From an uncultured Saprospirales bacterium (GTDB lineage: Bacteria > Bacteroidota > Bacteroidia > Chitinophagales > Saprospiraceae): a DNA stretch of 64,000 bases. A program made the position numbers and the translations under genes. Shown piece after piece: positions 2,056 to 48,198 of the stretch. Position 1 is the first letter of the stretch. Each line of letters opens with the position of its first letter. Under the pieces are notes generated by a model that was not told where the DNA came from, ran no database searches, and worked only from the letters and a program-made list of their open reading frames with translations. Location: NCBI GenBank assembly GCA_937864265.1, contig CALMIR010000142.1, forward strand, positions 1-64,000, in the 5' to 3' direction.

Positions 2056-3414
2056 ATGTCCGATTTTCTCAACCAAGTCCTGTTTCAAATTGGCGAATAC
2101 CCCATCCGTGCGGGCAATCTGCTATTCTTCCTTTTGGCATTGGGTATTCAATTGGCCGGCTATGCCTTTTTTTATCGGCGTTTAAAACCGCGCTATTTAT
2201 CCGGGGCAGAACTGGATCAAAAAGACCGTCGCAAAATCAACTTCACGGTCATTTTTTCTTTTATCCTCATTGCCCTGCTATCGGCGGTATTCATTTTGCA
2301 AATTGACCCCATCATTTTTGAATGGTCTTTACCCGATGCAGACGATACCTTCAAATCCAGCAAACTGCGCTTGTCTATCCTTATAGAAGCTTTGTTGGTC
2401 TGGCAAATTGCCCGCCTGTTGGATGTCGTGATTTCTAAAATCATCATTCAAAACTACTACCGCCAAAAGGCAGAAGAACCCATAGAAACAGACCGCTATC
2501 ACAAAGCAACCCCACAAAGAGCCAACCGCATTGTGCAATCCGTTGTATATGTGGTAGCCCTTATTTTTGTCCTACAAAGCTTTGGCATTGACTATGATTT
2601 TGGTGCTCAGGGCGAAGGAGATGTCAAGGTTGATTTTAAAATTTCCAGTCTGCTCAAAGCCGCTTTGTACGTATTGGGCGCCCGGCTGGCCGTCTGGATA
2701 CTCACCCAACTCATTCTACAGAATTACTACAAGGCCCGAAAAATCAATATCGGCTCCCAATACGCCATCAACCAACTGCTGCAATACTTCATTTATGTCA
2801 TCGCCATACTCATGGCTTTGGAGAGCCTGGGCTTTTCGCTGACGGTGCTATGGGGCGGGGCAGCAGCCCTACTGGTCGGTATTGGGCTAGGGCTACAGGA
2901 AACTTTCAAAGATTTCATCTCCGGCATTATTCTGTTGTTTGAACGCACTGTAGAGGTAGGCGATGTGCTGGAGGTGGACGACATGGTGGGTACGGTCAAA
3001 AAAATAGGCCTGCGCACCTCGCTGGTAGAAACCCGAAGCAACAAGACCGTCATTGTCCCCAATTCCAAACTCGTCGTGGACAAGGTCGTCAATTGGAGCC
3101 ACTTCGACAACAAAGTGCGCTTTGTCGTTACCGTGGGGGTTGCTTATGGCTCCGATACGGCGCTGGTTAAAAAAATACTCCTGCAAGTTGCCAAGCAGCA
3201 CCCCCAAGTGATCCGGCACCCCGCGCCTTTTGTCCGCTTCGTTGATTTCGGCAGTTCTTCTCTCGATTTTGAACTCCACTTTTGGTCGCATGAATTTATT
3301 GCGATTGATAATGTCAAAAGCGATATCCGCTTTGAGGTCGATCGCCTGTTCCGCGAGCAAAAAGTGACCATCCCATTCCCACAACAGGATGTGTGGATAC
3401 GGCAGGGGGAGTGA
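2056..3414 (+). CDS. MscS-family mechanosensitive ion channel
   Basis: Predicted inner-membrane small-conductance mechanosensitive channel that opens on hypo-osmotic shock. The 452-residue protein is longer than E. coli MscS (286), with extra N-terminal membrane helices. Hydrophobic segments lie at about 21-40, 62-83, 105-127, 158-175, 199-221 and 240-260. The pore-lining segment rich in Gly/Ala is about 266-290 (WGGAAALLVGIGLGLQ). The beta domain follows (FERTVEVGDVLEVDDMVGTV, about 295-314) and then the alpha/beta cytoplasmic vestibule. The ATG at 2056 sits just after a candidate promoter. moeA starts 21 bases downstream, so the two may be co-transcribed, though no functional link is known. 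Confidence 0.9.
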   Translation: MSDFLNQVLFQIGEYPIRAGNLLFFLLALGIQLAGYAFFYRRLKPRYLSGAELDQKDRRKINFTVIFSFILIALLSAVFILQIDPIIFEWSLPDADDTFKSSKLRLSILIEALLVWQIARLLDVVISKIIIQNYYRQKAEEPIETDRYHKATPQRANRIVQSVVYVVALIFVLQSFGIDYDFGAQGEGDVKVDFKISSLLKAALYVLGARLAVWILTQLILQNYYKARKINIGSQYAINQLLQYFIYVIAILMALESLGFSLTVLWGGAAALLVGIGLGLQETFKDFISGIILLFERTVEVGDVLEVDDMVGTVKKIGLRTSLVETRSNKTVIVPNSKLVVDKVVNWSHFDNKVRFVVTVGVAYGSDTALVKKILLQVAKQHPQVIRHPAPFVRFVDFGSSSLDFELHFWSHEFIAIDNVKSDIRFEVDRLFREQKVTIPFPQQDVWIRQGE

Positions 3415-6988: not shown

Positions 6989-7480
6989 ATGAGCGAAAAA
7001 TTCACCCATTTAGACGACAGCGGCAATCCCAGGATGGTGGACGTAGGCGCAAAAGCGCTGACCAAGCGCACGGCTACTGCCCAAAGTATCGTGGTGCTGC
7101 CAGAGGAAGTACTTGGGCTGTTGCAAAATGAGGAAATACACACCAAGAAAGGGCCTGTTTTCCAAACGGCTATTCTAGCAGGGCTTATGGCAGCTAAAAA
7201 AACCAGCGAATTGATACCGCTGTGTCATCCCTTGGCCTTGGACAATTGCAAGGTCGGCATTCGAATCAATGAGCAGCGGGAAGTGGTCGTTGATTGTACG
7301 GCCAGTATTACGGCCAAAACGGGGGTAGAAATGGAAGCCCTGACGGGGGCCAGCATAGCCGCCCTGACGATTTACGATATGTGTAAAGCGTTTTCCCACG
7401 ACATCGTCATCAAAGAAACACGCCTGATGGAAAAAACGGGTGGAAAGCAGGATTTTGTCCGCTCAACAGAAAGAATATGA
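6989..7480 (+). CDS. moaC: Cyclic pyranopterin monophosphate synthase MoaC
   Basis: MoaC, with MoaA, converts GTP to cyclic pyranopterin monophosphate, the first intermediate of molybdenum-cofactor synthesis. I take the ATG at 6989, giving 163 residues, the family length; an upstream in-frame ATG at 6947 adds 14 non-conserved residues. Visible signatures are KKTSELIPLCHPL (about 70-82), the VDCTASITAKTGVEMEALTG block (about 101-120) and YDMCK (about 129-133), which hold the active-site residues. The stop codon overlaps the start of the MobA fusion gene by four bases (ATGA), so the two are translationally coupled. Confidence 0.95.
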   Translation: MSEKFTHLDDSGNPRMVDVGAKALTKRTATAQSIVVLPEEVLGLLQNEEIHTKKGPVFQTAILAGLMAAKKTSELIPLCHPLALDNCKVGIRINEQREVVVDCTASITAKTGVEMEALTGASIAALTIYDMCKAFSHDIVIKETRLMEKTGGKQDFVRSTERI

Positions 7481-8628
7481 AAAAGCATCAAAAACACGCC
7501 GCGCTCAGTCGCCCCGCTTATGGCCATTTTCACCGCCAGGAATGGGCCATCATCGGTGCGCCTTGTGGCGAAATACAGCAATTGGCAGGTACGCTTATTC
7601 AGGCACTGAAGGGACAATTTGAACTGGCTTATGTGGACGCCAATCACAATAGTCCAGAGCATGACCCCAAAAACCCCATGACCTGGGGTAGCCGGGTGGC
7701 CTATACGGATCAAATCAGCCACCACCGCTTTGAGCACAAGCTGTCGCTAAATGACTTCCACTACCGCTATTGGTTCAATGAAGTGGATGCGGTGCTGGTC
7801 AATGGCAATCACTTCCCGGCCAAAAAGCAAATCGTTGTTATTGACCCCCGAAAAGAGGACTCGCTGAAGCGCAAACTGGATCGCCTGAACGATGTGGCGT
7901 TCCTGCTGTTGGCCGATGGCGTGGAGGCAGTATATCCCTGGTTGTACGAGGCACTGCCCCCACTAAAAGACCTTCCCCATTTTTCCATCCACCAAAGCGA
8001 GGCGATTATTGCCTTTTTGCAGCAGCAAATACAGGCTGCCATTCCGCCGCTGTATGGCTTGGTGCTGGCTGGCGGTAAAAGTACCCGCATGGGCCAGGAC
8101 AAAGGACTGATTGACTACCACGGCAAACCACAGCGCGATCATTTAAAGGACTTGCTGGCGCCCTTTTGTGCAAAAACCTATATATCCTGTCGGCCTGATC
8201 AGGTCGGCGAGGTAGCGGACCCCTTGCCCGATACCATCGAAGGTCTGGGGCCTATGGGGGCCATGCTTTCTGCGTTTCGCGCCCATCCGGATGTGGCTTG
8301 GCTGGTGCTGGCCTGCGATTTGCCTTTGCTACACAAAAAAAGTATAGAAAATTTGGTCAACAAGCGCAGCCCTTCAAAAGTGGCCAGTGCTTATAAAAGC
8401 CCTACGGACGATTTTCCGGAACCGCTGATTGCCATTTGGGAACCTCGCGCTTATCCCATCTTGCTACAATTTTTGGCGCAAGGCTATTCTTGCCCCCGCA
8501 AAGTGCTCATCAATTCCAATATCGAATTATTGCTGGCAGACCACCCGACCGCGCTGGAAAATGTCAATGATCCCGAGGAAATGGAAAGGGCGATGGAAAA
8601 AATCAAGGAGGGAGCATCGGTAACTTAA
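7477..8628 (+). CDS. mobA: MobA-type molybdenum cofactor guanylyltransferase with degenerate MobB-like N-terminal domain
   Basis: MobA attaches GMP to Mo-molybdopterin to make the guanine-dinucleotide cofactor used by DMSO-reductase-family enzymes. The C-terminal half (about 193-383) carries LAGGKSTRMGQDKG (197-210) and the metal-site ACDLPLL (Asp281). The first ~190 residues look like MobB, the partner GTPase, but the expected P-loop reads IIGAPCGEIQQLAG (25-38) without the GK[ST] lysine. This half is therefore probably structural or a binding platform, not a GTPase. Fused MobA-MobB proteins exist elsewhere; the unusual points here are the order and the lost P-loop. The start overlaps moaC (ATGA). 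Confidence 0.82.
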   Translation: MKKHQKHAALSRPAYGHFHRQEWAIIGAPCGEIQQLAGTLIQALKGQFELAYVDANHNSPEHDPKNPMTWGSRVAYTDQISHHRFEHKLSLNDFHYRYWFNEVDAVLVNGNHFPAKKQIVVIDPRKEDSLKRKLDRLNDVAFLLLADGVEAVYPWLYEALPPLKDLPHFSIHQSEAIIAFLQQQIQAAIPPLYGLVLAGGKSTRMGQDKGLIDYHGKPQRDHLKDLLAPFCAKTYISCRPDQVGEVADPLPDTIEGLGPMGAMLSAFRAHPDVAWLVLACDLPLLHKKSIENLVNKRSPSKVASAYKSPTDDFPEPLIAIWEPRAYPILLQFLAQGYSCPRKVLINSNIELLLADHPTALENVNDPEEMERAMEKIKEGASVT

Positions 8629-22130: not shown

Positions 22131-25040
22131 CTACTCTACCACCAACTTTACCCTACCAATCAGCCCTTCGTTGACCACCACTTGCAACCAATAGATACCG
22201 GAAGGCAGTGCTTCTACATCTATAGCGAACGTATTGTCCGACACAAGCCTTTCCTCGAGCAAACGGCTATTGGCATCGTAAAGGCGCATTCGGCCCTGCC
22301 ATACTTCTAAATCCTGTACGGCCAACCATATTACTTTATTGGAAGGGTTGGGATAGGCGGCCAATGATATTTTTTTCAATTGAAAAGGTGGATTCCCTTC
22401 ATTGCTCACTGCAATGAAATTTTCCGCTACTTCGTGCCAGGTAGTATTGGTGATGACCGGCTTGTTGAAATCGAAATAAATAGCGGCATTGTTAAATATT
22501 CGGCTGCCTAAGTCCACTTCGGGTTGCTGATCGATACGGAAACTGACAAAGCCATGAGAGGCCGCTTCGTTGGCGTTGCTGTCGGGTAGCATGATGTTGT
22601 CGAAATAGAAATGGAGTACATTCGCCTCGCTCAGTGTCCAACGGTAGGGATGGCTGGCAGCACCGGGTTGAACACTGGCCGGGTTGAGCAAAGCGGAAAG
22701 GGTATCGCGAATGACTACATTAAAGGCCGTATCTGTACCTGTATTTTGGAAGCGGATCAGGTATTCCAGCGAGGTATGGGGTTTGATGAAATGATCCGCT
22801 CCGTAGCCCATAGGGAAGGCCTGCTTGTCGTTGGGGTCGTATGCCCCGATACTAGCGTGGCAATCGATATCGGTGAATTCATTGGGCGGATAAATTGGAA
22901 ATTGATTAAAAAAGCCTGTGCTGAAGGGTTCGCCCTGACTTTCTACACAGCCTTCCAGGGTAACACTCACATAAGGGCTGTTGATCAGATCGGGTAAGCG
23001 CTTTGCTTCCATGCGGAAAGTGGCCCCATCGGTTGGATAGACCTGCTGCAGAGAGTCCCCGGCATTCAATTGGAAGGGGGCCAACAAATACATCACATCA
23101 TCTTCGATGACGATAAAATTGGAATTGCCCTGCATGTTGGAGCTGCCGATGTTTTTCAAGGTAAAAACGGCAGAATCACCAGCGCATCGGGCATGCAAGT
23201 CTATTTGCGCCAGCGATTGACTGCTACCGATACATAACGTATCGGGAAAAACATGGGCTTCGGTGCAATGGGTCTGCCCAAGCACGGTATTGTCGCAATC
23301 CAGGTAGGCCACGATTTGAAAACTGCCACAGGCCAAAGGCGCCACATCTCCTACGGAAAAACGGTAACTCTGACCTCCAATTGGCTCATAAGGCAAGGTG
23401 GCCGATTGGATGGATAGATAGTCGTCCAATTGTACATCTACGTAAGCATTTTCTGCCGTTTGCGTACCTGTATTGCAATAAGTGATGGTGTAAGTATTGT
23501 CAAAACAGCGGCGCAGAAAGGGCATAGCTATATCAACTTGCATCAGCGGACAAAGCTGCTGTGTCTGTATGGGCATCGACAGGGCTACCGAATCATACGG
23601 CACGGCTAAGTCAAAGCTATATTCCGGCACACAAGGCACCCAAAGATCGTTGGGCAGTATGACAGCAACCGTGTAAGCGCCGGTGTCCACAAGCAAGGAA
23701 AAATATCCTGCCGAGTCAGAGGTCGTATATTGCACCCCGTCATCACTAGTAACCTGGATGATCCATTCGGGTATCCCGGCTTCGAGCAGATCCGGTTGGC
23801 AATTGGTATTTTCATCCAGAAAAATTTGTCCATTGATCCTGTTCGTGCGGGAAAAACCCAGGCCGTCTGTTTTGATGACGAAAGCGGAGAAATCATTCAC
23901 CCCTGTTGCGATATAACCGCCATCTGGGCTTAGCTCAATTTGTCCAAACAGCATCATTTCTCCAGATATAAGCGGATCAAAAAGCCTTTCCCAAATAATA
24001 GCCCCATCGGGTGCAATTTTTGTAATGAAAGCGGTGCTGCTAGTGGGATAATAGAGGGTATATTCATCAAAAGAACCGACCATCACAAAATTGCCGTCAC
24101 TAGTCGCTTGGATGTCGCTGATTTTTGCCTGAAAATAGGCATAAAATAAATCAAAGACCAGATTGCCGTTTTCGTCTAATTCTGCCAGATAAGGACTCAA
24201 CCCGGCAAAGCCATTGACACCACCCCCGATTAAGAAATGGCCATCTGTTTTTTCTTGCACAGTCCACAATTCGTCAGAGATGCTGACCATCGTATTGTTC
24301 GTCCACAAGGTATCCAAATTGTCATCGAACCGGGTCACTTGTGCCCATGAAGCGGAGCCGTTTGTCGTTCGGCCAACTGCAATAAATCCACCGGCATTTG
24401 CGGCTTCTATGTCTTCTAATGGCGGATAAGCGGCTTCTCCCTCGAGCGCAGCTAGTTTTTCCCACAACAACTCGCCTGCGTCGGTAACTTTGATAAAATA
24501 ATTATATCGGGCGCTTGTTTCTGATTCAATGGCCAAACCGCTGATCAAAAAAGAGCCATCCGGGCAGGGTGTAAACGCTCCGGCAGAGGCTGTTTTCCCG
24601 GCAGGGTGATAGACCTGTTGCCAAAGGGTATTTCCCAAAGCATCCAGCCGCATAGCTATGATGCCAGAGGTATCCGCTCCAATATCATACAACTCATTGT
24701 AAGAGCCAACTACCAAATAATCACCATTTGTCAGCACATGAATCCCCTCCGGACGATCATTGCGAATATCGCCTTCATTGAACACCCGTTCCCATTGAAT
24801 TTGGCCGCCTGCATCGAGCTTTAGTACCCGCATGTAATTCCGAATGGCACCGGTAGGCAAATCCACCCTGCTCAATAAAACATAACCGCCATCTGGCGTG
24901 GGCTGAATTTCCCTGCCATAGCCATAACTGCCTAAACCATTGGCATCATAAGGATAGGAACGCTCCCAACCCTGGCCAAAAAGACAGGAATTACTACCAA
25001 AAACAAGTACAGAAACAATGAAAAGGTAAGCATATCTCAT
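22131..25040 (-). CDS. Secreted T9SS-sorted repeat protein (969 aa)
   Basis: Starts with a signal peptide (MRYAYLFIVSVLVFGSNS...). Residues about 25-400 contain repeated blade-like units (DGGYVLLSR, DGNFVMVGSF, DGGYIATG) like beta-propeller or delta-60 repeats. An SdrD-B-like domain follows (GQIFLDENTNCQPDLLEAGI, about 410-500), then DUF11-type immunoglobulin-like modules (FQNTGTDTAFNVVIRDTLS). The C terminus is a T9SS type A sorting domain beginning YPNPSNK and ending in VKLVVE. It is thus probably exported and anchored at or released from the cell surface. It is paralogous in architecture to the 1013-aa protein at 42276-45233. In both cases the upstream divergent neighbour is a ~470-aa helical protein. 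Confidence 0.85.
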   Translation of the reverse strand: MRYAYLFIVSVLVFGSNSCLFGQGWERSYPYDANGLGSYGYGREIQPTPDGGYVLLSRVDLPTGAIRNYMRVLKLDAGGQIQWERVFNEGDIRNDRPEGIHVLTNGDYLVVGSYNELYDIGADTSGIIAMRLDALGNTLWQQVYHPAGKTASAGAFTPCPDGSFLISGLAIESETSARYNYFIKVTDAGELLWEKLAALEGEAAYPPLEDIEAANAGGFIAVGRTTNGSASWAQVTRFDDNLDTLWTNNTMVSISDELWTVQEKTDGHFLIGGGVNGFAGLSPYLAELDENGNLVFDLFYAYFQAKISDIQATSDGNFVMVGSFDEYTLYYPTSSTAFITKIAPDGAIIWERLFDPLISGEMMLFGQIELSPDGGYIATGVNDFSAFVIKTDGLGFSRTNRINGQIFLDENTNCQPDLLEAGIPEWIIQVTSDDGVQYTTSDSAGYFSLLVDTGAYTVAVILPNDLWVPCVPEYSFDLAVPYDSVALSMPIQTQQLCPLMQVDIAMPFLRRCFDNTYTITYCNTGTQTAENAYVDVQLDDYLSIQSATLPYEPIGGQSYRFSVGDVAPLACGSFQIVAYLDCDNTVLGQTHCTEAHVFPDTLCIGSSQSLAQIDLHARCAGDSAVFTLKNIGSSNMQGNSNFIVIEDDVMYLLAPFQLNAGDSLQQVYPTDGATFRMEAKRLPDLINSPYVSVTLEGCVESQGEPFSTGFFNQFPIYPPNEFTDIDCHASIGAYDPNDKQAFPMGYGADHFIKPHTSLEYLIRFQNTGTDTAFNVVIRDTLSALLNPASVQPGAASHPYRWTLSEANVLHFYFDNIMLPDSNANEAASHGFVSFRIDQQPEVDLGSRIFNNAAIYFDFNKPVITNTTWHEVAENFIAVSNEGNPPFQLKKISLAAYPNPSNKVIWLAVQDLEVWQGRMRLYDANSRLLEERLVSDNTFAIDVEALPSGIYWLQVVVNEGLIGRVKLVVE

Positions 25041-25200: not shown

Positions 25201-26601
25201 TTGAAAAACAGCAAACTTCTGCAAGTTATTGAACATTTGGATAAGCGGGAATTGCGGGAATTGAAGCCATTCCTTCGCTCCCCTTTTTTCAATCAGCGGG
25301 AGGAAGTCGCTCAATTATTCGATTACATCGTAGACTGCCTCTATCTGCTCGACATAGAACCAAGTAAAACAGGCGCTCACCGCTATCTGAAGCGCCCTGA
25401 ACCTTTTGAGCCGCAGCAAATTCGCTATTTGATGAGTTGGTTGTTGCAACTCATTGAAAAATACCTGAGCCTTTCGGCCTTTTTGGAGGATGACGTAGGT
25501 CAAAAAATTGCCTTGAGCCGGGTTTATCGATCAAAAGGGCTGCAAAAGCATTTTGAACAGAATTATCAAAAGCTGCTAAATCAACAGCAACAACAACCCT
25601 TTCGACATGCCGAGTTCTACGAAAGCCAGTATCGAACCGAATTGGAGCGCTATCAGTTTCGCGCAGCACAGCAGCGTTTTGTCGAACAAAACCTGCAAGT
25701 CATTTCGGATAATATTGACTTGGCTTATATTTCACGCAAGTTGAGGCAAACTTGCCTGTCGATATCGCATCAGACGGTTTACAACACCGCTTATCAATTT
25801 GGCCTATTGGAAGAAGTACTCCAGTATGTTGAAAAAAACAATTTGCTCCCCATCCCCGCTGTTGGTATTTACTACCATTGTTTTTTAGCTTTGCGAACAA
25901 CTGAAGAGGCGCATTTCAACGCTTTCAAAAAAGGCATTTTAGACCACGAAGCCCTATTCCCGGCTGAAGAGCTACGCGATTTGTACCTCCTGGCACTCAA
26001 TTATTGCATCCGGCGGCTCAACGACGGCCTCCAACATTATGCCGGCGAAGGGCTTGATCTTTATAAAGCGGGGCTGGCTAATGGCGTTTTGTTGTCCGAT
26101 AACCGCCACCTCTCGCGATTTACTTACCGCAACATCGTGGCAATGGCTTTAAAGGTAGGCGACCTGGAGTGGGTAGCCACTTTTATCCGGGATTATAAAT
26201 CGTTTCTAAAAAGTGAGTTTCGCGAAAGCATGTATTCTTTCAGTTTGGCCAGGCTGGCTTACCAGAAAAAAGACTACGGACAGGTGCTAGAGCTCTTACA
26301 GCGTTCGGAATACAGCGACCTGCTGCTCAACCTGGCAGCCAAAACCCTAATGCTGAAAACGTTTTACGAACTCCGCGAGTATGACCTGCTGGATGCCCAT
26401 CTACAGGCTATGAAGGCTTTCATCCGCCGCAAAGACCTCATCGGCTACCACAAAATCAATTACAACAACATCATCCGCTTCACGCAAAAACTATTGAACC
26501 TCAACTTCAACGCCCCCTCGGAAAAAGCAGTGCTGATGCGTCAAATACAAGCAGAAGAACACCTGACCGAAAGGGAATGGCTATTGGAGCAACTGGAATG
26601 A
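25201..26601 (+). CDS. Helical protein of unknown function, paralogue 1 (TTG start)
   Basis: I do not recognise a named family. The 466 residues look all-helical and rich in charged and aromatic residues, with no signal peptide or membrane segment. It is clearly paralogous to the protein at 45434-46849. Shared segments include NQREEVAQLFDY/NQREDVVHLFDY, GLLEEVLQY/GMLEEVLQY, AVGIYYHC/AIAIYYNC and the terminus LTEREWLLEQL/LTEKQWFLQQL. The only start consistent with the paralogue is TTG at 25201: LKNS aligns with the paralogue's MENS, and there is no in-frame ATG until about 25432. It is divergent from the T9SS protein gene, as is its paralogue. Confidence 0.82.
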   Translation: MKNSKLLQVIEHLDKRELRELKPFLRSPFFNQREEVAQLFDYIVDCLYLLDIEPSKTGAHRYLKRPEPFEPQQIRYLMSWLLQLIEKYLSLSAFLEDDVGQKIALSRVYRSKGLQKHFEQNYQKLLNQQQQQPFRHAEFYESQYRTELERYQFRAAQQRFVEQNLQVISDNIDLAYISRKLRQTCLSISHQTVYNTAYQFGLLEEVLQYVEKNNLLPIPAVGIYYHCFLALRTTEEAHFNAFKKGILDHEALFPAEELRDLYLLALNYCIRRLNDGLQHYAGEGLDLYKAGLANGVLLSDNRHLSRFTYRNIVAMALKVGDLEWVATFIRDYKSFLKSEFRESMYSFSLARLAYQKKDYGQVLELLQRSEYSDLLLNLAAKTLMLKTFYELREYDLLDAHLQAMKAFIRRKDLIGYHKINYNNIIRFTQKLLNLNFNAPSEKAVLMRQIQAEEHLTEREWLLEQLE

Positions 26602-37473: not shown

Positions 37474-38982
37474 ATGCAGGCTTTACACGAAATTTTAGTG
37501 CATTCGGCTGATCTACACGCCGAAAGAACGGCTCTTATTGAAGAAGGAGGGGCGTCGATTACCTATAGTGGTCTGCATACGTCAGCAGTATCTTATGCGG
37601 CCATTTTAAACCAACATGGATTGGGACAGCATAAACGCATAGGTGTATTGTTGCCCAAATCCATCCACAGCATCATGGCTTTTCTGGGTGCCTCTATGAA
37701 TGGTGCTACCTATATTCCATTGGATATCGACTCTCCATCAGCGCGCAACCTCCTGATTTTGAAAGATTGCGAATTCCATGCCTTGCTGACTAATCCGGAA
37801 ACAGCCGCCGAATACGCAACGGAGTTGCCGGAAAACCACCAGCGCATCGAGTTGGAAGCTTTCGGGTTGGTATTGTTTCTCTTGCGGGATGTAACTGAAG
37901 TAGAAGCACACCTGGAAGGTACGACTCCTTTGGCCTTTTTGTTATACACATCTGGCTCAACGGGTATTCCTAAAGGCGTTCCTTTTACCCATGCCAATGC
38001 GCTGAGTTTCGTCGAATGGGGCAGCCAAGCCTTCCATTTTCACGAGAATGACAAACTGGGTTCCATAGCACCTTTTCATTTCGATCTTTCTGTTTTCGAT
38101 ATCTATGTCACACTGAAGCATGGGGCTTGCCTGTATATTTTCAGCAGGAAGTCCGCACAAAATCCCATGCTCATTGCCAAATTGTTGGATACGGAAAAGA
38201 TCACGGCTTGCTATTGTACGCCTACGATGCTCACGTTGTTGCTCAATTATGGCAAGCTGGATCGCCTCGATCACAGTGCCTTGCGCTATGTCTTTTTTGC
38301 CGGAGAAGTCTTTCCCGTCAAGCACTTGCGCAAATTGATGGCAGCTTGGCCTCAGGCAGAATATGCCAACCTGTACGGGCCTACGGAAACCAATGTATGT
38401 ACTTATTACCGGGTGCCCAATCCATTACCGGAAGCAATTGAAAACCTGCCCATAGGCTTCACCTGCGAGCATTTACAAAGTAAGGTGCTGTCGGAGGGTG
38501 ACAACAGCAGTGGCGAGCTGCTGATCAGCGGGCCTGCCGTGATGCAGGGCTATTGGAAACGCCCAGAAGTCAACGAAAAGGCCTTCTTGATAGCAGACAA
38601 TGGGACAAAGTGGTACAAAACTGGCGACCTGGTAGATCTGAATGAACAAGGAGAGTATTTATTCCTAGGCCGTAAAGATCGAATGGTCAAGAGAAGGGGC
38701 TATCGAATTGAATTGGATGAAGTGGAAAACGCGATGCGGAAGCACAGCGCGATCGAAGCCAGCGCCGTTGTCGCTACGAAGGGAGATGATCAAAACGTGG
38801 CCATCATTGCCTTTTTCAAACTCTTTCCCGGAAAAGAAGTGCCGCCTGCCTTGGAACTTAAAACCCATTGCCTGGATTATGTGCCTTCTTATATGTTGCC
38901 GGATAAGTTTTTGGAAATTGAGGCCATTCCTATGACCAGCACCCAAAAGGTAAATTATCAACAGCTGTTGCAATCGGTATGA
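37474..38982 (+). CDS. Amino-acid adenylating ligase (stand-alone A domain)
   Basis: A 502-residue adenylation enzyme that should activate an amino acid and load it on the adjacent carrier. The core motifs are LLYTSGSTGIPKG (157-169), APFHFDLSVFDIY (199-211), NLYGPTETNVCTYYR (299-313), the YKTGDLV and GRKDRMVKRRGYRIE hinge and the terminal TSTQKVNY with the catalytic Lys. The HFDLSVFD and GPTETNVCT wording resembles prolyl-AMP ligases of pyrrole pathways (PltF, RedM, CloN4) and also DltA. Substrate prediction as proline is inference from operon context. It overlaps the dehydrogenase gene by four bases (ATGA). Confidence 0.88.
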   Translation: MQALHEILVHSADLHAERTALIEEGGASITYSGLHTSAVSYAAILNQHGLGQHKRIGVLLPKSIHSIMAFLGASMNGATYIPLDIDSPSARNLLILKDCEFHALLTNPETAAEYATELPENHQRIELEAFGLVLFLLRDVTEVEAHLEGTTPLAFLLYTSGSTGIPKGVPFTHANALSFVEWGSQAFHFHENDKLGSIAPFHFDLSVFDIYVTLKHGACLYIFSRKSAQNPMLIAKLLDTEKITACYCTPTMLTLLLNYGKLDRLDHSALRYVFFAGEVFPVKHLRKLMAAWPQAEYANLYGPTETNVCTYYRVPNPLPEAIENLPIGFTCEHLQSKVLSEGDNSSGELLISGPAVMQGYWKRPEVNEKAFLIADNGTKWYKTGDLVDLNEQGEYLFLGRKDRMVKRRGYRIELDEVENAMRKHSAIEASAVVATKGDDQNVAIIAFFKLFPGKEVPPALELKTHCLDYVPSYMLPDKFLEIEAIPMTSTQKVNYQQLLQSV

Positions 38983-40127
38983 CCACCAACTTTTTAAATA
39001 GCGATCAAAAACTGTTGCAGCAAGAAATCATTGCCTTTGCTGCCGAGCACCTCAATCAAGGGGTAGCAAGAAGGGATGTTGAGCAGATTTTCGATCGCCA
39101 TTTATGGGAAAAATGCGGTCAATTGCAACTCCCGGGTCTAGCCGTAGCAAAAGAATACGGAGGTCGCGGACTAGATGTTGTAACGACCACAGCGGCTTTG
39201 GAAGCATTGGGCTATGGCTGTATGGACAATGGTCTGAGTTTTTCTTTGGGCGCTCATTTGCTGGCTTGCGTGATTCCCATTTGGTTGTATGGCAGCGAAG
39301 AACAAAAGCAGCGCTTGTTGCCGGGTTTGTGCAATGGCCAATTGATTGCTGCCAATGCAATTACCGAAGCTTCCAGCGGATCGGATACTTTTGAAATGCA
39401 GACCGTCGCTACTGAAGAGGGCGGTCATTACTTGTTGAACGGCGAGAAAAACTTTTGTTCCAATTCTCCTGTGGCAGACATTGGTCTGGTCTATGGTTTA
39501 ACCAATAAGGCCAAAAAAGCTATGGGTGGTGTGACGGCCTTCATTCTGGAAAGGCAGGCCGGGCATTTTCTGACCGGCGGTAGCTTGAATAAAGCCGGAC
39601 TTCGATCTTGTCTGACTGGTAGCTTATCCATCACGGATGCCCGTGTACCCGAATCTGCCGTTTTGGGAAAAAAAGGAAGTGGTACTATCATTTTCCTCCA
39701 TTCCATGACTTGGGAACGCATCGGACTCAGCGCGGTACATTTGGGTACTTTGGCTCGACTAAGCGACAAAGCGCTTGCCTTGCATAATCCACATTTGGAC
39801 AATGGCAGCTACAATCCGCTGATCGCTCACAGGCTGGCAAAAGTGCATGCCGAGTTGGAAGCGGCTCGTATGCTGGTTTATCAGGCTGCTTATTTGTTGC
39901 AAACGGGCAACCGGCAGGCAAGCACCAGAGCTTCTCAAGCCAAATTGTTGGCCAGTGAAACTTATAAGCGAAATACCGGGGTATTGCTTGAATTACTGCC
40001 AGAGAAGGCCCTACATGGGGATAGCGATTTTGCCCGCTGCTATCGCGATGCAGTGGGAAGTACCATTTATTCCGGCACCTCGGAGATTCAGAAAAATGTG
40101 ATTGCGAAATATTTAGGCTTTGGATAA
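38979..40127 (+). CDS. Acyl-CoA-dehydrogenase-like flavoprotein acting on carrier-bound substrate
   Basis: A 382-residue FAD enzyme of the acyl-CoA dehydrogenase fold. Features are AITEASSGSD (127-136), a TWERIGLSA segment with Glu246 at the place of the base used by isovaleryl-CoA- and prolyl-carrier-type dehydrogenases, and the terminal GSTIYSGTSEIQKNVIA. Next to a carrier protein and adenylating ligase, it resembles PltE/RedW/CloN3, which oxidise prolyl-S-carrier to pyrrolyl-S-carrier. An ordinary beta-oxidation role is less likely, as no CoA-pathway gene is adjacent. Its start overlaps the ligase stop by four bases. Confidence 0.82.
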   Translation: MTTNFLNSDQKLLQQEIIAFAAEHLNQGVARRDVEQIFDRHLWEKCGQLQLPGLAVAKEYGGRGLDVVTTTAALEALGYGCMDNGLSFSLGAHLLACVIPIWLYGSEEQKQRLLPGLCNGQLIAANAITEASSGSDTFEMQTVATEEGGHYLLNGEKNFCSNSPVADIGLVYGLTNKAKKAMGGVTAFILERQAGHFLTGGSLNKAGLRSCLTGSLSITDARVPESAVLGKKGSGTIIFLHSMTWERIGLSAVHLGTLARLSDKALALHNPHLDNGSYNPLIAHRLAKVHAELEAARMLVYQAAYLLQTGNRQASTRASQAKLLASETYKRNTGVLLELLPEKALHGDSDFARCYRDAVGSTIYSGTSEIQKNVIAKYLGFG

Positions 40128-40145
40128 TTTTAAAAAACAGCTATC

Positions 40146-41450
40146 ATGAAAAATACTTACGATGTAATTGTAGTTGGTGGCGGTCCTGCAGGCTCCACGG
40201 CAGCAGCGTTATTGGCCAAAGACGGGGTAGATGTCTTGCTCGTGGACAAAGAGCAATTTCCTCGTTACACGGTTGGAGAAAGCTTGATTCCTCATTTTTG
40301 GAAATTTACGGATCTACTCGGCGTTACTCAGGAAATTGAGGATGCCGGATTCATTCGCAAATCGGGTGGGGTCGTTTATTGGGACAATATGGTGCGCAAA
40401 ATCCAGTTCAAGGATTTCGGTTATACCCGTCCGGGGTTGCACGTCGAGCGAGATGAGTTCGATAATATCCTTCTGAACAATGCCAAGCGCTTAGGGGTAG
40501 AAGTGGTAGAAAAAATGATGGCATTGCAGGTAGCCGACCTGGAAGGCGAGGTGTCTCGCGTATTGCTCCAACCCGTAGGTGGTACAGAAGCTGACCAACA
40601 GTGGGTGAGTGCTAAAGCGATCATAGATGCGACAGGCCAGCAGTGTATGATTTCCAAGCAGGAGGAAATCAAGAATTATGATTCTGCTTTCCGCTTCCAG
40701 TCTATTTGGGGCTATTACGATAAAGCCGACTATTACTATGCTATTGATGAAAAAACCGATTTTGAAAACCGACACAGTATTCCCCCATTAACCCTGGTTT
40801 CGTCGGTAGGTGAAAACTGGGGCTGGTGCTGGCATATCGTCATGAAGGAAAAAGTAAGTATCGGTTTGGTTTTGCCCAAATCAAGTTTGCAAAAATTCAA
40901 AGAATCCGGGGATAACATCGAGGAACGTTTTGTCAACATGGTAAAAACGGTGCCTATTATCAATGAAACGCTGGCCAATTCCAATTTTATACCCAATTCT
41001 ATTTATAGCATCCGCGATTACTCCTATCGCTCTGAAAAACTGCGGGTAGGCAATTGTTACCTGGTGGGCGATGCCGCAGCTTTTGTTGATCCCATTAGCT
41101 CTGCAGGAGTGCCGATGGGCATGTATGCTGGTATTTTGGCCAGTTGGTGCGTTTCGAACACCTTGCGCAGGCCGCACCGCAAGCCTTTTTTCTCTGAATT
41201 TTATGAAAAGACCCTTGGCATGCGCCTGGATTTGTTCCGCTTGCTGGCTTATCCAAGTAGTATTCTACCACCAGAACTCATGCAACAGGGACGCGACGTC
41301 ATCCGCATGTCCAGTGTTTCAGAAAACCAATTGGTACTGGCACAGTCCATGGTGACTAACCGGGGGCAGAATTTCCCGGATTTGTTGGAAGAAATGGGAT
41401 ACGAAGCGCAAAAGCTGTTTGAAGAGCGCGTGCACCATGCTGCCTATTAA
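40146..41450 (+). CDS. Flavin-dependent halogenase-like monooxygenase
   Basis: A 434-residue FAD protein. The dinucleotide motif is VGGGPAGS (10-17), followed by VGESLIPHFW, a hallmark of flavin-dependent halogenases and related reductases. The GFIRKSGG segment (69-75) carries Lys72 at the position of the haloamine-forming lysine. The WxWxIP region reads W227-C-W-H-I-V232, so the final Pro is Val. GDAAAFVDPISSAG (308-321) matches the FxDPxxSxG block. In operon context it resembles PltA-type halogenases that chlorinate pyrrolyl-carrier substrates. A hydroxylase or geranylgeranyl-reductase-like role remains possible, as this fold covers all of these. Confidence 0.75.
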   Translation: MKNTYDVIVVGGGPAGSTAAALLAKDGVDVLLVDKEQFPRYTVGESLIPHFWKFTDLLGVTQEIEDAGFIRKSGGVVYWDNMVRKIQFKDFGYTRPGLHVERDEFDNILLNNAKRLGVEVVEKMMALQVADLEGEVSRVLLQPVGGTEADQQWVSAKAIIDATGQQCMISKQEEIKNYDSAFRFQSIWGYYDKADYYYAIDEKTDFENRHSIPPLTLVSSVGENWGWCWHIVMKEKVSIGLVLPKSSLQKFKESGDNIEERFVNMVKTVPIINETLANSNFIPNSIYSIRDYSYRSEKLRVGNCYLVGDAAAFVDPISSAGVPMGMYAGILASWCVSNTLRRPHRKPFFSEFYEKTLGMRLDLFRLLAYPSSILPPELMQQGRDVIRMSSVSENQLVLAQSMVTNRGQNFPDLLEEMGYEAQKLFEERVHHAAY

Positions 41451-42275: not shown

Positions 42276-45233
42276 CTAACGCACGACCAGCTTGCCGCTG
42301 GCCACTAGCTTACCCTCCATTTGAAGTTGGTACAAGTACAATCCGGCAGATAGCTTGCGACGGTTATAAATGATCTGATCTTCTCTCACCTGCATGGCAT
42401 CTACCAATTGTCCTTGTTGGTTGTATAATGAAAATTGAATGGGTCTGTTATTGGTCCGTCCTTCGATTTCAAAAATGACGTAGTCGAAGGAAGGGTTGGG
42501 ATAGGCTTTTACTTGTACAGGATCAAAGCCTTCCGGGGTATCCACATCTACTGGGATAATCTCTAGCAGCTCTACCAGTGTAGGTGCTGCTATGACATGT
42601 ACTACCTCGTTGGTCATTACGGGTTCAAAATAATCAAAAGTGATGGCAGCACGGTTGACAATCACTGTCCCTACCTCATTATTGGCCTTTTGGGCAATTC
42701 GGAATTCAACAAAGCCATAGGACGATGCGTCAGCTGCGCTGCCATCAGGCGGTAGTGTAATTTCCTCAAATGTAATTTTTAGTACTCCTGTATGATAAAC
42801 TTCTATGTTGTAAGGATGACTACTGGCACCAGGTAGGATGGAACTTGGATCCAAACCTTCGGGCAGCGTATCCCTGATAACAACGCGATTGACGGCCTCC
42901 GTCCCCAAATTGCGGAATGCTATTTTGTAGGTTATGTCTGTCGTAGCAGAAATCTTTGAACCTTGATAACCTTTTGGATGGCCTTGTAATTCCACTTGGT
43001 TGATGGAATCGCTCACCGTACTTACATCTATCGATACAAACGGATCCGCATCATCTTCTGGAAACTGCCCCAAATAGGTAACAGAATAACCACTGCCATC
43101 TTCTGTGCAACCTTCAACGGCTACCGTTGGGAGGCTATTGCCAGGATGCCCTTCTTCTTGCTCTGCAACTAAGCGATAAGTAGCGCCTCCGCCCGGAATG
43201 CTCTTGACCACTTGTTCGCCCACGTCCAGATTGAAATTGCCATCGTCTATCAGGAAGATAAGATCATTTTCAATAACAACATAATTTTTATCTACCTGCA
43301 TGGGCGCAATCCCCACGTTCTCAATGGTAAAAACAATGGTATCATTGACGCATTTGCCGTCCACTTGTACACTGGCACCGCCCCAACCCGGTGTTTCTAC
43401 ACAAAGTGTATCGGGAGTCAGATAGACCTTATTGACTATGGCCTGGGCATCAGCAACTCCGTCGCAATCCAGTTGGGTATTGATGAGGAAACTCCCACCT
43501 CCATTGAAAGGGACATCGCCCAAATCGAAAGCGAATACATTATTACCTTCATCCACAAAAGGCAATCCCGCATCAATGAGGGTCAATTCTTGATCAAGGG
43601 TGACCCTAAGTGTTGCAGCCTCTGCTACGTCTGTACCTGTATTCAGGTAGCTGACCGTATAAGGCACATTACCACATGTGAAAGTCGTAGGCGCGCTGAT
43701 ATCTGCTTCCCAATAAGGGCAAAGGATGCTTGCTTGTACCGGAAAGTCGCGGTACAACGTATCATAAGCTTCACTAAAATCTATATCCGTATAGGTATTC
43801 TGAGGGACGCAACTGTTCCAATAAACATTGGGTGGAATGAGTTCCAGGCTGTAATTGCCCGTATCCACCCGAACAGAATAAAAGCCATTTTCATCCGTAG
43901 AACCAAAATAGGTTTTGCCTTCTCCCTGCACGCGAACCAACCAGTTGTGGAAGGGGTTTTCGCCTACGTCTGCCAAACAGTTATCATTGTCGTCAAAAAC
44001 CACTTTGCCCTGAACGTAGTTGGTAAAAACATTACCCCCACCATCTGTAATCACCAGTGTAATATCATTGGCCAAAACCGAGAACAAAGCATTGTATCCA
44101 GCCAAAGCAAATCCCCCATTAGCTGTTAGGGCAATATCTTGGGCAAAATCTAGCAGAACCACATCGCCCCCCTGCTGAGTCCAAAGGATATTTCCGGCAG
44201 GGTCATATTTGACAATCAAAAAATTGATATCTATGGCATCCAACTCTGTATAACCCCCAATCACTAAATCGCCATCTGGTAACTCAATAATGGAATTGGC
44301 TCCATCACCAAGACCAAATATATCCTGCGAGCGCGACCAGGTTTCATCGCCATCTGCATCATATTTCCAAAGCCCTACATTATTAGAAGAAGTACCTGCT
44401 ACCACCAATTGTTGGTCTTGGGTGGCCACCAAGTCGTTCCCGATCTCTGAACCCAAGGTGGACTGCCCACGCTTCCAGATGACCTCACCATTGCTATCCA
44501 AGCGATAAATGAACATATCCGATCCAAACGCCGTGGGCGGTGGCAGTGGATTGTCTTCAGCGCCGCAAATGGCATAACCATCTAAAAATGGCACTACAGC
44601 CAAAGCTTGATCTCCTCGGTCTTCGCCGAATATCTTACGCCATTGCTCATTGCCCGTTTCATCTACTTTGATTAGGAATATATCATTTTCCTGATCGGTG
44701 TATTCTACATGGCCTGCCAGCAAATAGCCGCCATCCGGGCTTTTGGCAATATCTGCTAATTTGACTTGATTTGCCGTAGGTTCAGAAAAAGAATGACTCC
44801 ATTCCGGAGCGCCTTTATTGTCTATTTTCAGTAGGTAGCCCTGATAGGGACCTTGAATGGCAGTATAAGAAATCGATCCGACAATCAAAAAACCGCCATC
44901 AGGCGTTTGAAGCGCAGCATTGGCATATTCCGTATTGCCATCATCCACCACATTTTCCCACAACACCGTGCCATCCACATCAGTACGGATCAAGTAAATA
45001 TCAATATCCTGATCTTGTCCTTGAGGAACAGATTCGCTGAAACCAACTACTAGGTAACCGTGATCGGAAGTTTGGATGATGACCGAGCCTTGATCCTCTT
45101 TATTGCCTCCGAAGCTCGCTTCCCAGCCCTGGGCACTGGCAGGCAAAGCCCATAGAATACCCATAGCAACCACCACGGTTTGGAGGAGGCATAATGCATG
45201 GATGCGGGTTAAAGAAACAATCATACGAGTCAT
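42276..45233 (-). CDS. Secreted T9SS-sorted repeat protein (~985 aa)
   Basis: I take the ATG at 45231-45233, which gives MTRMIVSLTRIHALCLLQT and a signal peptide ending ALPASAQG; upstream ATGs at 45269 and 45317 are also in frame. The mature protein begins GWEASFGG, and blade-like repeats (DGGFLIVGS, DGGYLLAGH, DGDLVIGGY) fill the first ~400 residues. An SdrD-B-like segment (GKVVFDDNDNCLADVGENP), DUF11-like modules (FRNLGTEAVNRVVIRDTLP) and a T9SS sorting domain (YPNPSFDYVIFEI to KLVVR) follow. Architecture and order match the 969-aa protein at 22131-25040. It should be secreted and displayed or released. Confidence 0.83.
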   Translation of the reverse strand: MTRMIVSLTRIHALCLLQTVVVAMGILWALPASAQGWEASFGGNKEDQGSVIIQTSDHGYLVVGFSESVPQGQDQDIDIYLIRTDVDGTVLWENVVDDGNTEYANAALQTPDGGFLIVGSISYTAIQGPYQGYLLKIDNKGAPEWSHSFSEPTANQVKLADIAKSPDGGYLLAGHVEYTDQENDIFLIKVDETGNEQWRKIFGEDRGDQALAVVPFLDGYAICGAEDNPLPPPTAFGSDMFIYRLDSNGEVIWKRGQSTLGSEIGNDLVATQDQQLVVAGTSSNNVGLWKYDADGDETWSRSQDIFGLGDGANSIIELPDGDLVIGGYTELDAIDINFLIVKYDPAGNILWTQQGGDVVLLDFAQDIALTANGGFALAGYNALFSVLANDITLVITDGGGNVFTNYVQGKVVFDDNDNCLADVGENPFHNWLVRVQGEGKTYFGSTDENGFYSVRVDTGNYSLELIPPNVYWNSCVPQNTYTDIDFSEAYDTLYRDFPVQASILCPYWEADISAPTTFTCGNVPYTVSYLNTGTDVAEAATLRVTLDQELTLIDAGLPFVDEGNNVFAFDLGDVPFNGGGSFLINTQLDCDGVADAQAIVNKVYLTPDTLCVETPGWGGASVQVDGKCVNDTIVFTIENVGIAPMQVDKNYVVIENDLIFLIDDGNFNLDVGEQVVKSIPGGGATYRLVAEQEEGHPGNSLPTVAVEGCTEDGSGYSVTYLGQFPEDDADPFVSIDVSTVSDSINQVELQGHPKGYQGSKISATTDITYKIAFRNLGTEAVNRVVIRDTLPEGLDPSSILPGASSHPYNIEVYHTGVLKITFEEITLPPDGSAADASSYGFVEFRIAQKANNEVGTVIVNRAAITFDYFEPVMTNEVVHVIAAPTLVELLEIIPVDVDTPEGFDPVQVKAYPNPSFDYVIFEIEGRTNNRPIQFSLYNQQGQLVDAMQVREDQIIYNRRKLSAGLYLYQLQMEGKLVASGKLVVR

Positions 45234-45433
45234 TAGCGAGTGTTTAAGGCCGAAATCTTTGGATCGCATTACAAAAGTGTTTGGATTTAGAAGGAAAAAC
45301 AAATACAAAAAAAGCAATTTGTTGATAAAAAACCATTATTTTTGAACATCTATAATGTCGTTTATCCAGCTAAAAAGCTGATTTTCAAAATATCCACTAT
45401 TAAGCATTTATTAACAGCTTGTTGTTGAAAATC

Positions 45434-46849
45434 ATGGAAAATAGTACCCTCATCAGCATATTACGCACCTTCCATAAAAAAGAAATCCGGGATTTTAAAA
45501 AATGGATTCAATCTCCTATTCACAACCAACGGGAAGACGTGGTTCACCTTTTCGATTATCTTATCGCCAGTGACCATTTGAATCAGGATAAATTTTTGCA
45601 AAAGGAACGCGTTTTCTCTAAGCTATTTTCATCTGAACCCTATGATGATGCTAAATTAAGGCAAAGCATCCATTTTTTATTGAAAGCCATCGAGGAATTT
45701 CTCATTTTCCACGAAATGCGGGAAGACGAGGTTCGCTCTAAAATTACTTTGGCCAGCGTTTACCGCAAACGCAAACTAGACAAGGCTTTTGGTAAAACCG
45801 TTCAATTGATTGACACCATTCAGGAAAACTCCCCCTATCGCAACGAGCAATATCTGCGCAACGAATACCTGCTTCAAAACGAGAAATATACTTATATAGC
45901 CGATAAAAAAAGAACGGCAAATGAGGTTTATTTGCAAGAGGTTTCAGATGCCTTAGATGCGACTTATCTAGCTGACAAACTACGTCAGTGTTGCTTGATT
46001 CGAGCTCACCAAAGGGTCGTTACCATTGATTATAACATCGGGATGCTAGAAGAAGTATTACAATATATACAAAATAATCTTAAACTACTAGAATTGCCTG
46101 CTATTGCCATCTATTATAATTGTTACTATACGTTTATATATCCAGAGAATGACTCCTACTTCCAAGCATTAAAAGTAGCTATCATTAAAACCGGACATCT
46201 TTTCCCAAATGACGAGGCTAAGGATATCTTTATCATGGCTATAAGCTATTGTATAGAGCGCATCAACAAAGGCCATCTTTCCTATACCCGAGAGTTATTT
46301 GACTTTTATAAAAAAGGCTTCGAAGAAAAAATCTTGCTGGACAATAATGCCATTACTTTATACACCTTCCGGAATGTAGTAACGGTGGGGCTGAAACTGG
46401 AAGAAGACAAATGGGTATCCAACTTTATCCGCAACTACAATAAATACATTGATGAAGAATACCGCGAAAGCATCACCAACTATTGCATGGCTATGGTAAG
46501 TATCAATCAAAAAGATTACAGCGCAGCGATGCGCCTTTTGGCTACCACTGAAATCAAAGACGTACTCATCCACCTGAATGCCAAAACCATGCTACTGAAA
46601 ATGTATTACGAGTTGGACGAAATAGACGCACTAGAGTCCCTGCTCGAAAGCATGCGCACCTTTATTCAGCGCAAACAAATGATTGAATCCTACAAGGCCA
46701 ATTACCAAAATATCGTCAAATTCACTAAAAAGTTAATCCGGATAAAACCCTATGATAAAACTCAAACAGAAGGTTTGCGTAAAACTATAAGTGAGGCAAG
46801 CCCACTCACCGAAAAACAGTGGTTTTTGCAACAATTGGATAAGGTTTGA
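45434..46849 (+). CDS. Helical protein of unknown function, paralogue 2
   Basis: A 471-residue protein from the ATG at 45434 (an upstream TTG at 45419 is in frame but MENSTLISIL matches the paralogue's start). No known domain, signal peptide or membrane segment is evident; the sequence looks all-helical. It is a clear paralogue of 25201-26601 and, like it, is divergent from a T9SS repeat-protein gene. The repeated pairing suggests a functional link between a cytoplasmic helical protein and the secreted product, but the role is unknown. Confidence 0.88.
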   Translation: MENSTLISILRTFHKKEIRDFKKWIQSPIHNQREDVVHLFDYLIASDHLNQDKFLQKERVFSKLFSSEPYDDAKLRQSIHFLLKAIEEFLIFHEMREDEVRSKITLASVYRKRKLDKAFGKTVQLIDTIQENSPYRNEQYLRNEYLLQNEKYTYIADKKRTANEVYLQEVSDALDATYLADKLRQCCLIRAHQRVVTIDYNIGMLEEVLQYIQNNLKLLELPAIAIYYNCYYTFIYPENDSYFQALKVAIIKTGHLFPNDEAKDIFIMAISYCIERINKGHLSYTRELFDFYKKGFEEKILLDNNAITLYTFRNVVTVGLKLEEDKWVSNFIRNYNKYIDEEYRESITNYCMAMVSINQKDYSAAMRLLATTEIKDVLIHLNAKTMLLKMYYELDEIDALESLLESMRTFIQRKQMIESYKANYQNIVKFTKKLIRIKPYDKTQTEGLRKTISEASPLTEKQWFLQQLDKV

Positions 46850-46921: not shown

Positions 46922-47077
46922 TTAGAAAATCAAATCATCTTCTACGACAAAAAATATCAAATCATCTTCTACGATAAAATCTTCGCCTCCTTTGATCGCC
47001 AGCATGTTTTGGTTGGAAATGACTTCTGCTTTTGCTGCAAAGTCCTCAAATTTCAATGGTGCTTTTTGATTTTTCAT
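46922..47077 (-). CDS. GG-leader peptide precursor (51 aa) with tandem-repeat core
   Basis: A small minus-strand gene reads MKNQKAPLKFEDFAAKAEVI, then SNQNMLAIKGG and a 20-residue tail. The leader ends in a double glycine (Gly30-Gly31) preceded by NMLAIK, the pattern of Bacteroidota RiPP and bacteriocin precursors processed by C39 peptidase transporters. The core is ED followed by two 9-residue repeats, FIVEDDLIF and FVVEDDLIF, encoded by a 27-bp tandem DNA repeat (46952-46978 and 46925-46951). No modifying enzyme or transporter is adjacent: upstream on the plus strand is paralogue 2 and downstream metF. The gene sits alone in a ~390-bp gap; coding status is inferred from the leader and the repeat keeping the frame. 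Confidence 0.72.
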   Translation of the reverse strand: MKNQKAPLKFEDFAAKAEVISNQNMLAIKGGEDFIVEDDLIFFVVEDDLIF

Positions 47078-47180: not shown

Positions 47181-47211
47181 TTGCCCAATCCCCCCCTTAT
47201 TTGTAGCTTTG
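47181..47211 (+). promoter_or_regulatory. Candidate metF promoter (TTG - N20 - TAGCTTTG)
   Basis: TTG at 47181-47183 and TAGCTTTG at 47204-47211 are separated by 20 bases, matching the Bacteroidota -33/-7 layout. The predicted start of transcription is near 47218, giving a leader of about 24 bases before the ATG at 47242. This also argues against the in-frame TTG at 47209 as the translation start. Confidence 0.65.
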
Positions 47212-47241
47212 CCCGGTACAAAAGGCCAAAGCCAGTCTTAC

Positions 47242-48198
47242 ATGAAAGTTACCGATTATTTTGAACGCGCACAAGGAAAAACACTGATTTCATTTGAGGT
47301 ATTGCCGCCGCTGAAAGGGGGGAGTATGAAAGCTATTTTCGACACCCTCGATCCGCTGATGGAATTCAAGCCGCCCTTTATTGATGTGACTTATCACCGG
47401 GAGGAGTTTATCTACAAAAAGCGCCCGAGCGGCTATTATGAAAAAACCGCTATCCGCAAACGCCCGGGTACCGTGGGTATTTGCGCTGCCATCATGCACC
47501 GCTATGGGGTGGATGCAGTGCCTCATCTAATTTGCGGTGGTTTCACTACTGAAGATACCGAAAATGCACTGATAGACCTTAATTTTTTAAACATCAACAA
47601 TGTATTGGCACTGAGGGGCGATGCCCGCAAATTTGAGCAACACTTCGTCGCGGAAGAAGGAGGGCATCAGTTTGCCATAGATTTGGTCAAACAGATTGTG
47701 GAAATGAACCGTGGCCGCTACTTGGACGATGGCATCGAGCATGGCGAACCTACTGACTTCTGCATCGGGATAGCCGGTTACCCGGAAAAACATTTTGAAT
47801 CGCCCAATATCGATTTCGACCTGCAACGCATGAAAGACAAGATAGATGCTGGCGCCAATTACATCGTTACCCAAATGTTTTATGACAACAGTAAGTATTT
47901 TGAATACCTGGAGCACTGCAAAGCCATCGGCATTGATGTACCCATTGTACCGGGTTTAAAACCCATCACCAAGAAGTACCAATTGAATTCCATTCCCAGG
48001 CATTTTTATGTTAATTTGCCTAAGGATTTGGTCGATGAAATGGAAAAGGCTAAAACGCCGGAAGCTCGACAGGAAGTCGGCATAGAGTGGTGCATAGCTC
48101 AATCCCAAGAGTTGAAGGCCGCCGGAGTGCCTTGTTTGCATTATTACACCATGGGCGATTCGGAGACCATTAGGCGTATTGTCGAGGCTGTTTTTTAA
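47242..48198 (+). CDS. metF: Methylenetetrahydrofolate reductase MetF
   Basis: Flavoenzyme that reduces 5,10-methylene-THF to 5-methyl-THF for methionine synthesis. The 318-residue protein from ATG 47242 has the N-terminal FEVLPPLKGG segment with the catalytic Glu19. NNVLALRGDA binds FAD/substrate, and GYPEKHFESP and VTQMFYDNSKYFEYL follow as in bacterial MetF. Length and order are normal. A well-formed promoter lies just upstream. Confidence 0.95.
   Translation: MKVTDYFERAQGKTLISFEVLPPLKGGSMKAIFDTLDPLMEFKPPFIDVTYHREEFIYKKRPSGYYEKTAIRKRPGTVGICAAIMHRYGVDAVPHLICGGFTTEDTENALIDLNFLNINNVLALRGDARKFEQHFVAEEGGHQFAIDLVKQIVEMNRGRYLDDGIEHGEPTDFCIGIAGYPEKHFESPNIDFDLQRMKDKIDAGANYIVTQMFYDNSKYFEYLEHCKAIGIDVPIVPGLKPITKKYQLNSIPRHFYVNLPKDLVDEMEKAKTPEARQEVGIEWCIAQSQELKAAGVPCLHYYTMGDSETIRRIVEAVF

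Follow-up and report, generated by a model that had tools for sequence, protein, structure and literature searches.

The window, i.e., the 64,000-nucleotide stretch of DNA analysed here, encodes a 51-residue peptide that belongs to an unnamed Saprospiraceae-type family whose short GG-leader peptides number more than 50, and this family is encoded systematically in convergent orientation to the gene of a ~470-aa helical solenoid protein. The association between peptide, solenoid protein and surface protein is new and, judged from sequence comparisons, well supported. By analogy with RRNPP peptide-receptor pairs, we tentatively propose that the window peptide may be an exported ligand of the neighbouring solenoid protein, a reading to which we give nearly even weight. 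The features of the locus are collected in Table 1.

Table 1. Features of the peptide-solenoid-surface protein locus and of a second solenoid locus in the window
Feature	Position	Strand	Evidence
GG-leader peptide gene, 51 aa	46922..47077	-	Translation, family profile
Leader MKNQKAPLKFEDFAAKAEVISNQNMLAIKGG, predicted C39 cut after GG	46985..47077	-	IKGG-type site kept family-wide; cleavage predicted from it
Core repeat 1, FIVEDDLIF	46952..46978	-	Translation
Core repeat 2, FVVEDDLIF	46925..46951	-	Translation
471-aa all-helical solenoid protein, convergent partner of peptide, clade A	45434..46849	+	AlphaFold2, linkage, tree
Large T9SS-secreted protein (Por_Secre_tail, DUF7619, DUF11), divergent partner of solenoid gene	42276..45317	-	Pfam
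T9SS-protein internal segment DKNYVVIENDLIF, resembles peptide core	43254..43292	-	Motif comparison
Second solenoid gene copy, 37% identical, without GG peptide	25201..26601	+	Gene similarity
T9SS-secreted protein divergent from second solenoid copy, internal motif SNFIVIEDDVMYL (about 23091-23114)	22131..25040	-	

A GG-leader peptide gene with a duplicated core

The peptide gene lies between the 3′ end of the 471-codon solenoid gene and a plus-strand gene (47209-48198) that, from our reading of the sequence, we take to be methylenetetrahydrofolate-reductase-like. Its translation consists of a leader that ends in NMLAIKGG, with hydrophobic residues preceding the GG, and of the core EDFIVEDDLIFFVVEDDLIF, which contains no Cys, Ser, Thr or Lys. 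The two 9-residue repeats of the core abut and are in frame at 27 bp, and the three base differences between them comprise two synonymous changes and one Ile-to-Val substitution. A preliminary description of this DNA had already reported a 51-codon minus-strand gene situated in a gap, its NMLAIKGG leader, an in-frame 27-bp duplication of nine residues differing at one site and a core lacking the same four residues; the translation agrees exactly on the gene and its leader, and the remaining points were likewise found to be correct. Neither Pfam nor NCBIfam gave a match for the peptide, and the sequences upstream of the peptide genes showed no conspicuous Bacteroidota promoter signature. Elsewhere in the window, a row of genes at 37474-41447, of adenylation-domain, acyl-CoA-dehydrogenase-like and FAD-dependent oxidoreductase/halogenase-like type, resembles a prolyl-to-pyrrolyl natural-product module.

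The peptide belongs to a family with a conserved GG site

Direct searches with the peptide alone returned almost nothing close in the genomes searched. Entry to the family was through one weak match, a 46-aa ORF in a same-family genome (G049), in which ...NQLIEIKGG is followed by NDFIVIDDVNGF and then by a second, truncated copy; used as a query, this ORF led to a set of short ORFs sharing its layout. A profile built from 11 related peptides, the window peptide included, scored the window peptide at E=5e-12 within its own genome and found matches in 73 of 398 same-family genomes at E<=0.05, the weakest of which are uncertain. More than 50 peptides, each read individually, have a clear KGG-type site and a hydrophobic-acidic core following the pattern [FI][IV][IV]x[DE]D. 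The preliminary description had suggested looking for the leader in related genomes and had counted a GG site lacking conservation there as evidence against the gene; leader and GG site are both conserved across these more than 50 relatives. The duplicated core that it had reported is real and recurs in two further members of the family (AIIIEDMTIEHIIIEDMTID and NDIIIDDTTQFIIRDDIAGI).

Contig 115 of the genome from which the window comes carries a paralogue (...QIKIKGG followed by DDGIIIEDLVM); there, an MsnO8-like luciferase-type oxidoreductase gene comes after the GG peptide on the same strand, near the contig end (L155, 76-1188). At another locus (L363, G225 contig 402, 387-3457), a 3-kb stretch of the contig encodes three GG peptides that belong to the family and are nearly identical. 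A strict core pattern occurred in 2 of 298 genomes and the reversed control likewise in 2, so that this pattern proves nothing alone. Among GG peptides encoded beside C39 transporters, other peptides were found and the window-peptide family was absent. A genome-wide search with a GG pattern (30 loci read) listed the window peptide and yielded the precursor of a grasp-with-spasm cluster as the only convincing short GG leader.

The peptide gene is linked to a solenoid gene

When neighbourhoods were compared, the single recurrent neighbour of the peptides was a homologue of the 471-aa gene, which in the window is convergent with the peptide gene across a gap of 79 bp. In 30 best-per-genome peptide loci, picked by peptide score alone, a helical gene was present within 1.5 kb in 18, being convergent to the 3′ end in 17 and divergent in one. 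Chance adjacency is about 1-2%, and the linkage has a binomial p of ~1e-23 (~2% expected). We collected 36 distinct pairs of peptide and helical gene with the same layout, with gaps of mostly 3-180 bp. The helical family is present in 5-39 copies per genome in eight genomes, with 16 in the window's genome. The preliminary description had noted that no modifying enzyme is adjacent, which is true locally, and had considered the peptide a possible orphan; it missed the systematic genetic partner next door, and a family that is regularly convergent with a ~470-aa solenoid-protein gene is no orphan. At one further locus (L213, G143; 2782-3309 and 7475-7975), lipoprotein-like genes of ~165-175 aa take the convergent position of the GG peptide at two solenoid genes.

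Two clades of solenoid protein and a motif common to their partners

Scanning named genomes with the 471-aa family yielded 80 loci, which belong almost without exception to Saprospiraceae or related Bacteroidota MAGs. One record titled Thermoanaerobaculia (Acidobacteriota; L279) carries a solenoid gene nested among those of Bacteroidota, which is probably contamination of that MAG. The upstream neighbour of the helical gene is divergent in 66 of the 68 loci that have one; these divergent neighbours are long ORFs, almost all of secreted type, and usually encode a protein of ~850-1290 aa with a T9SS-type tail. Almost no GG peptides were found at the 80 loci, because, as seen from the tree, loci found by similarity of the solenoid gene are largely of clade A. 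The tree of 111 helical proteins splits into clade B, with a peptide in 32 of 37 rows, and clade A, with a peptide in only 4 of 74 rows, of which the window locus is one; the peptide label changes 9 times on this tree vs 30.6 times for shuffled labels. Upstream neighbours in clade B are varied, usually with no T9SS partner. Clade A pairs with a divergent T9SS surface protein that bears the peptides' motif internally, and the window locus has both the peptide and the T9SS protein.

The internal motif was located with a matrix trained solely on peptides from outside clade-A loci. In the clade-A T9SS partners its best matches occupy one or other of two fixed places, which lie ~137 and ~320 aa before the C-terminus. 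Against unrelated long ORFs, 62 of 67 partners scored higher than the 95th percentile; against 30 T9SS proteins of the window's genome taken as unlinked, the same held for 54 of 62 (p=2e-13). As the partners are mutually related, such p-values overstate independence. Sec/FN3-like proteins convergent to the helical gene end in SGFIIIDDINGT or SGFIVIEDVNGT, so the same motif is common to the two T9SS-partner regions, the peptides and the tails of these proteins. Where clade-A loci have a peptide, its core often resembles the T9SS segment of the same locus, e.g., FIVADELAGF in the core vs FIVADEINGF in the T9SS protein at L356 (rank 1 of 76), and FVVEDDLIF vs YVVIENDLIF in the window (shuffle p=0.035). 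The broader idea of each core being a copy of the T9SS partner at its locus was rejected, as only about half of the tested pairs show such a resemblance; among the other pairs, some of the assigned partners are probably wrong.

Predicted fold of the solenoid protein

The helical family has no Pfam or NCBIfam name and no TPR family match by sequence. The AlphaFold2 model of the 471-aa protein is an all-helical solenoid with a pLDDT of 93.5. The first nine rows returned by VIA-align were all Rap/NprR (Z 12.8-14.8, residues ~97-471), values that lie within the helical-solenoid baseline. Since generic TPR proteins reach Z 12 and helical models commonly 14, these matches point to a TPR-like solenoid and only suggest a Rap-like one. 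Foldseek gave weak TPR matches only, none with E<0.001. The N-terminal 105 residues are also all-helical in the model; the best VIA rows for this domain were DNA-binding domains with Z~5, below baseline, and are not a clear or usable match for the N-terminal ~100 residues, where absence from the list leaves other domain families possible. Two Asn residues (N271 and N314) are conserved across both helical clades and position 384 is basic, an arrangement that would suit a peptide groove. The window's protein departs from this conservation in having Ser in place of N271.

Candidate exporters

The window's genome encodes two C39 peptidase-ABC exporters (PCATs), on contigs 58 and 187, neither of which adjoins the peptide gene. 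The first is part of a grasp-with-spasm cluster (L019, G000 contig 58, 9667-15988) comprising the C39 exporter, an HlyD protein, a GG precursor, an ATP-grasp enzyme above the TIGR04192 cut-off and a SPASM protein below its cut-off. This cluster has its own, different precursor, with the leader MKNLNAFQNQAIQETEQNELKGG and the core RIVVFDTGDSVWIWSNGEDITTYVDGMNWGSDVP. The second exporter (L020, G000 contig 187, 6544-10108) is accompanied by HlyD, with no precursor or modifying enzyme recognised nearby, and is a candidate for exporting the window peptide. Short upstream reading frames (SARVRT..IN) that are nearly identical at L019 9667 and L020 10282 suggest a repeated DNA element in front of both exporter loci. 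A C39 domain was counted in about 53 of 56 peptide-bearing genomes vs 124 of 242 others (Fisher p=1e-10, from a hand tally that ignores kinship). A different family is seen at one C39 exporter locus (L060, 2218-2770), where three GG peptides arranged in tandem have a cationic core (KSVKGG followed by TDLIVIRAPRYKGDRG). The preliminary description had read the gene as encoding a GG-leader export peptide and had proposed searching the genome for C39 transporters and for an ATP-grasp partner. Its reading is supported by the leader and GG site conserved across more than 50 relatives together with the two PCATs; an ATP-grasp enzyme exists as well, but in a cluster that has its own precursor.

Proposed function and alternatives

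In the proposed scheme, in which the GG peptide is a dedicated exported form of the motif, a remotely encoded C39 peptidase-ABC exporter would cut after GG and export the 20-residue core, whose duplication would provide two copies of the active motif. This motif, whether as free peptide or within the T9SS protein, would be bound by the helical solenoid protein acting as an intracellular receptor or regulator, and the pair, Rap/Phr-like in the RRNPP sense, would possibly control the neighbouring surface protein. Several observations stand against this proposal: a GG peptide is lacking at the majority of clade-A helical genes, an internal motif in a T9SS protein is unexpected for a simple pheromone system, the helical protein matches no TPR family by sequence and its VIA scores lie within the baseline, its N-terminal part has no clear match, about half of the tested pairs lack resemblance within their own locus, and the window's protein has lost N271. 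Among the options named in the preliminary description, a bare secreted peptide fits best, with a probable protein partner now added to it. On a wider scale, sequence comparison makes it possible, if somewhat doubtful, that Bacteroidota have a hitherto undescribed system in which the solenoid protein recognises one hydrophobic-acidic motif, presented in a T9SS surface protein in one lineage, as a stand-alone GG-leader peptide in another and in both forms at a few loci including the window; such a system would link surface-protein secretion and peptide signalling.

The strongest rival to the ligand proposal, in itself rather unlikely, casts the helical protein as a dedicated chaperone in the cytosol, or as a secretion-coupled regulator, to which the motif of the T9SS partner would bind before export; the GG peptides would then serve as small decoys or titrators of it. 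The fixed place of the motif inside the T9SS partner at most clade-A loci, the divergent upstream neighbours in 66 of 68 and the predicted TPR-like solenoid would all be accounted for in this way, but clade B has the peptide usually without a T9SS partner, a peptide of 10-20 residues requires no chaperone and none of such kind was found for T9SS in the literature searched. The same distribution weighs against an extracellular role, which we consider improbable, whereby the peptide, once exported, would mimic a strand of the neighbouring T9SS surface protein and act on that protein outside the cell (by strand donation or by blocking assembly or cell-cell contact), the helical gene being linked for another reason. 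Several clade-A cores do resemble the T9SS segment of their own locus, and the Sec/FN3-like proteins have the same tail; clade B nevertheless retains peptide and helical gene and usually lacks the T9SS protein, which leaves the helical protein as the constant partner.

The preliminary description had seen in the gene the pattern of a RiPP precursor. The reading that remote enzymes, e.g., those of the contig 58 cluster, act in trans to make a modified RiPP could draw on the GG leader, on the TIGR04192 ATP-grasp and C39 exporter in the genome and on the luciferase-like oxidoreductase gene adjoining the contig 115 paralogue. It is nevertheless unlikely, because the core has no Ser, Thr or Lys for the ester or amide rings of graspetide chemistry and no Cys, and no enzyme is linked to the gene or recurs in the compared neighbourhoods. 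Furthermore, no TIGR04149 match above the curated cut-off was obtained for the peptide or anywhere in the genome, no Pfam or NCBIfam RiPP model matched, and the grasp-with-spasm cluster has a different precursor of its own and lies on another contig. A small bacteriocin with the helical gene as its immunity protein appears very unlikely: GG leader, C39 exporters in the genome, convergent neighbour and many paralogues are all compatible with it, yet the acidic core of 10-20 residues is unlike class II bacteriocins, and the putative immunity protein pairs, in its clade A, with a large surface protein instead. That the ORF is spurious, a chance reading frame in an intergenic gap, would agree with the lack of a close homologue in the genomes searched and is hardly credible given the family-level conservation, the positional linkage and the paralogue in the same genome.

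Should the motif prove to be the ligand of the solenoid protein, Gram-negative Bacteroidota would have a peptide-receptor system of the Rap/Phr kind, of which we found no description in the literature for this phylum, with 5-39 receptor-like paralogues in each of the eight genomes examined. An unannotated protein family and a peptide class easily missed by gene callers would thereby gain a function, and peptide export in environmental bacteria would be tied to surface proteins secreted by the type IX system.

Comparison with known systems

The closest parallels lie with the RRNPP/RRNPPA systems (Rap-Phr, NprR-NprX, PlcR-PapR), in which, as here, a short propeptide (51 aa in the window) is encoded beside a helical solenoid (471 aa, predicted and intracellular-looking in the window), the active part is at the propeptide C-terminus and many paralogues occur per genome. 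RRNPP receptors have a C-terminal TPR fold and, at the N-terminus, an HTH or three-helix bundle. The RRNPP signature comprises a receptor of 250-500 aa, a propeptide of 10-100 aa and a gap of -60 to 400 bp (PMC10075063), and the sizes of the two window proteins and their 79-bp gap fit these limits. Duplication of the pheromone within propeptides, as in the window propeptide, is known from Rap systems (PMC11343458). In contrast, the RRNPP systems described are from Bacillota (PMC9765709), whereas the window system is in Bacteroidota and has convergent orientation. RRNPP peptides leave the cell by Sec or PptAB and return through an oligopeptide permease, and the window peptide has a GG leader; moreover, the window protein has no sequence match to TPR or Rap models, and a T9SS protein bears the ligand-like motif. 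Because of these differences in leader type, orientation, phylum, sequence match and T9SS partner, we do not file the window locus as an RRNPP member.

The GG-leader RiPP precursors of Bacteroidota (TIGR04149, grasp-with-spasm) share with the window peptide a short precursor with a KGG-type leader and a C39 exporter in the genome; unlike them, the window peptide gives no match at the family cut-off and combines a core free of Ser, Thr, Cys and Lys with the absence of a linked modifying enzyme. In the class II chaperones of type III secretion, a TPR protein is encoded beside an exported protein that has a short binding motif. The arrangement is similar here in that the gene of a TPR-like protein adjoins that of an exported motif-bearing protein, and differs in that the partner is a T9SS protein, the solenoid is larger and, in one clade, a stand-alone peptide replaces the partner.
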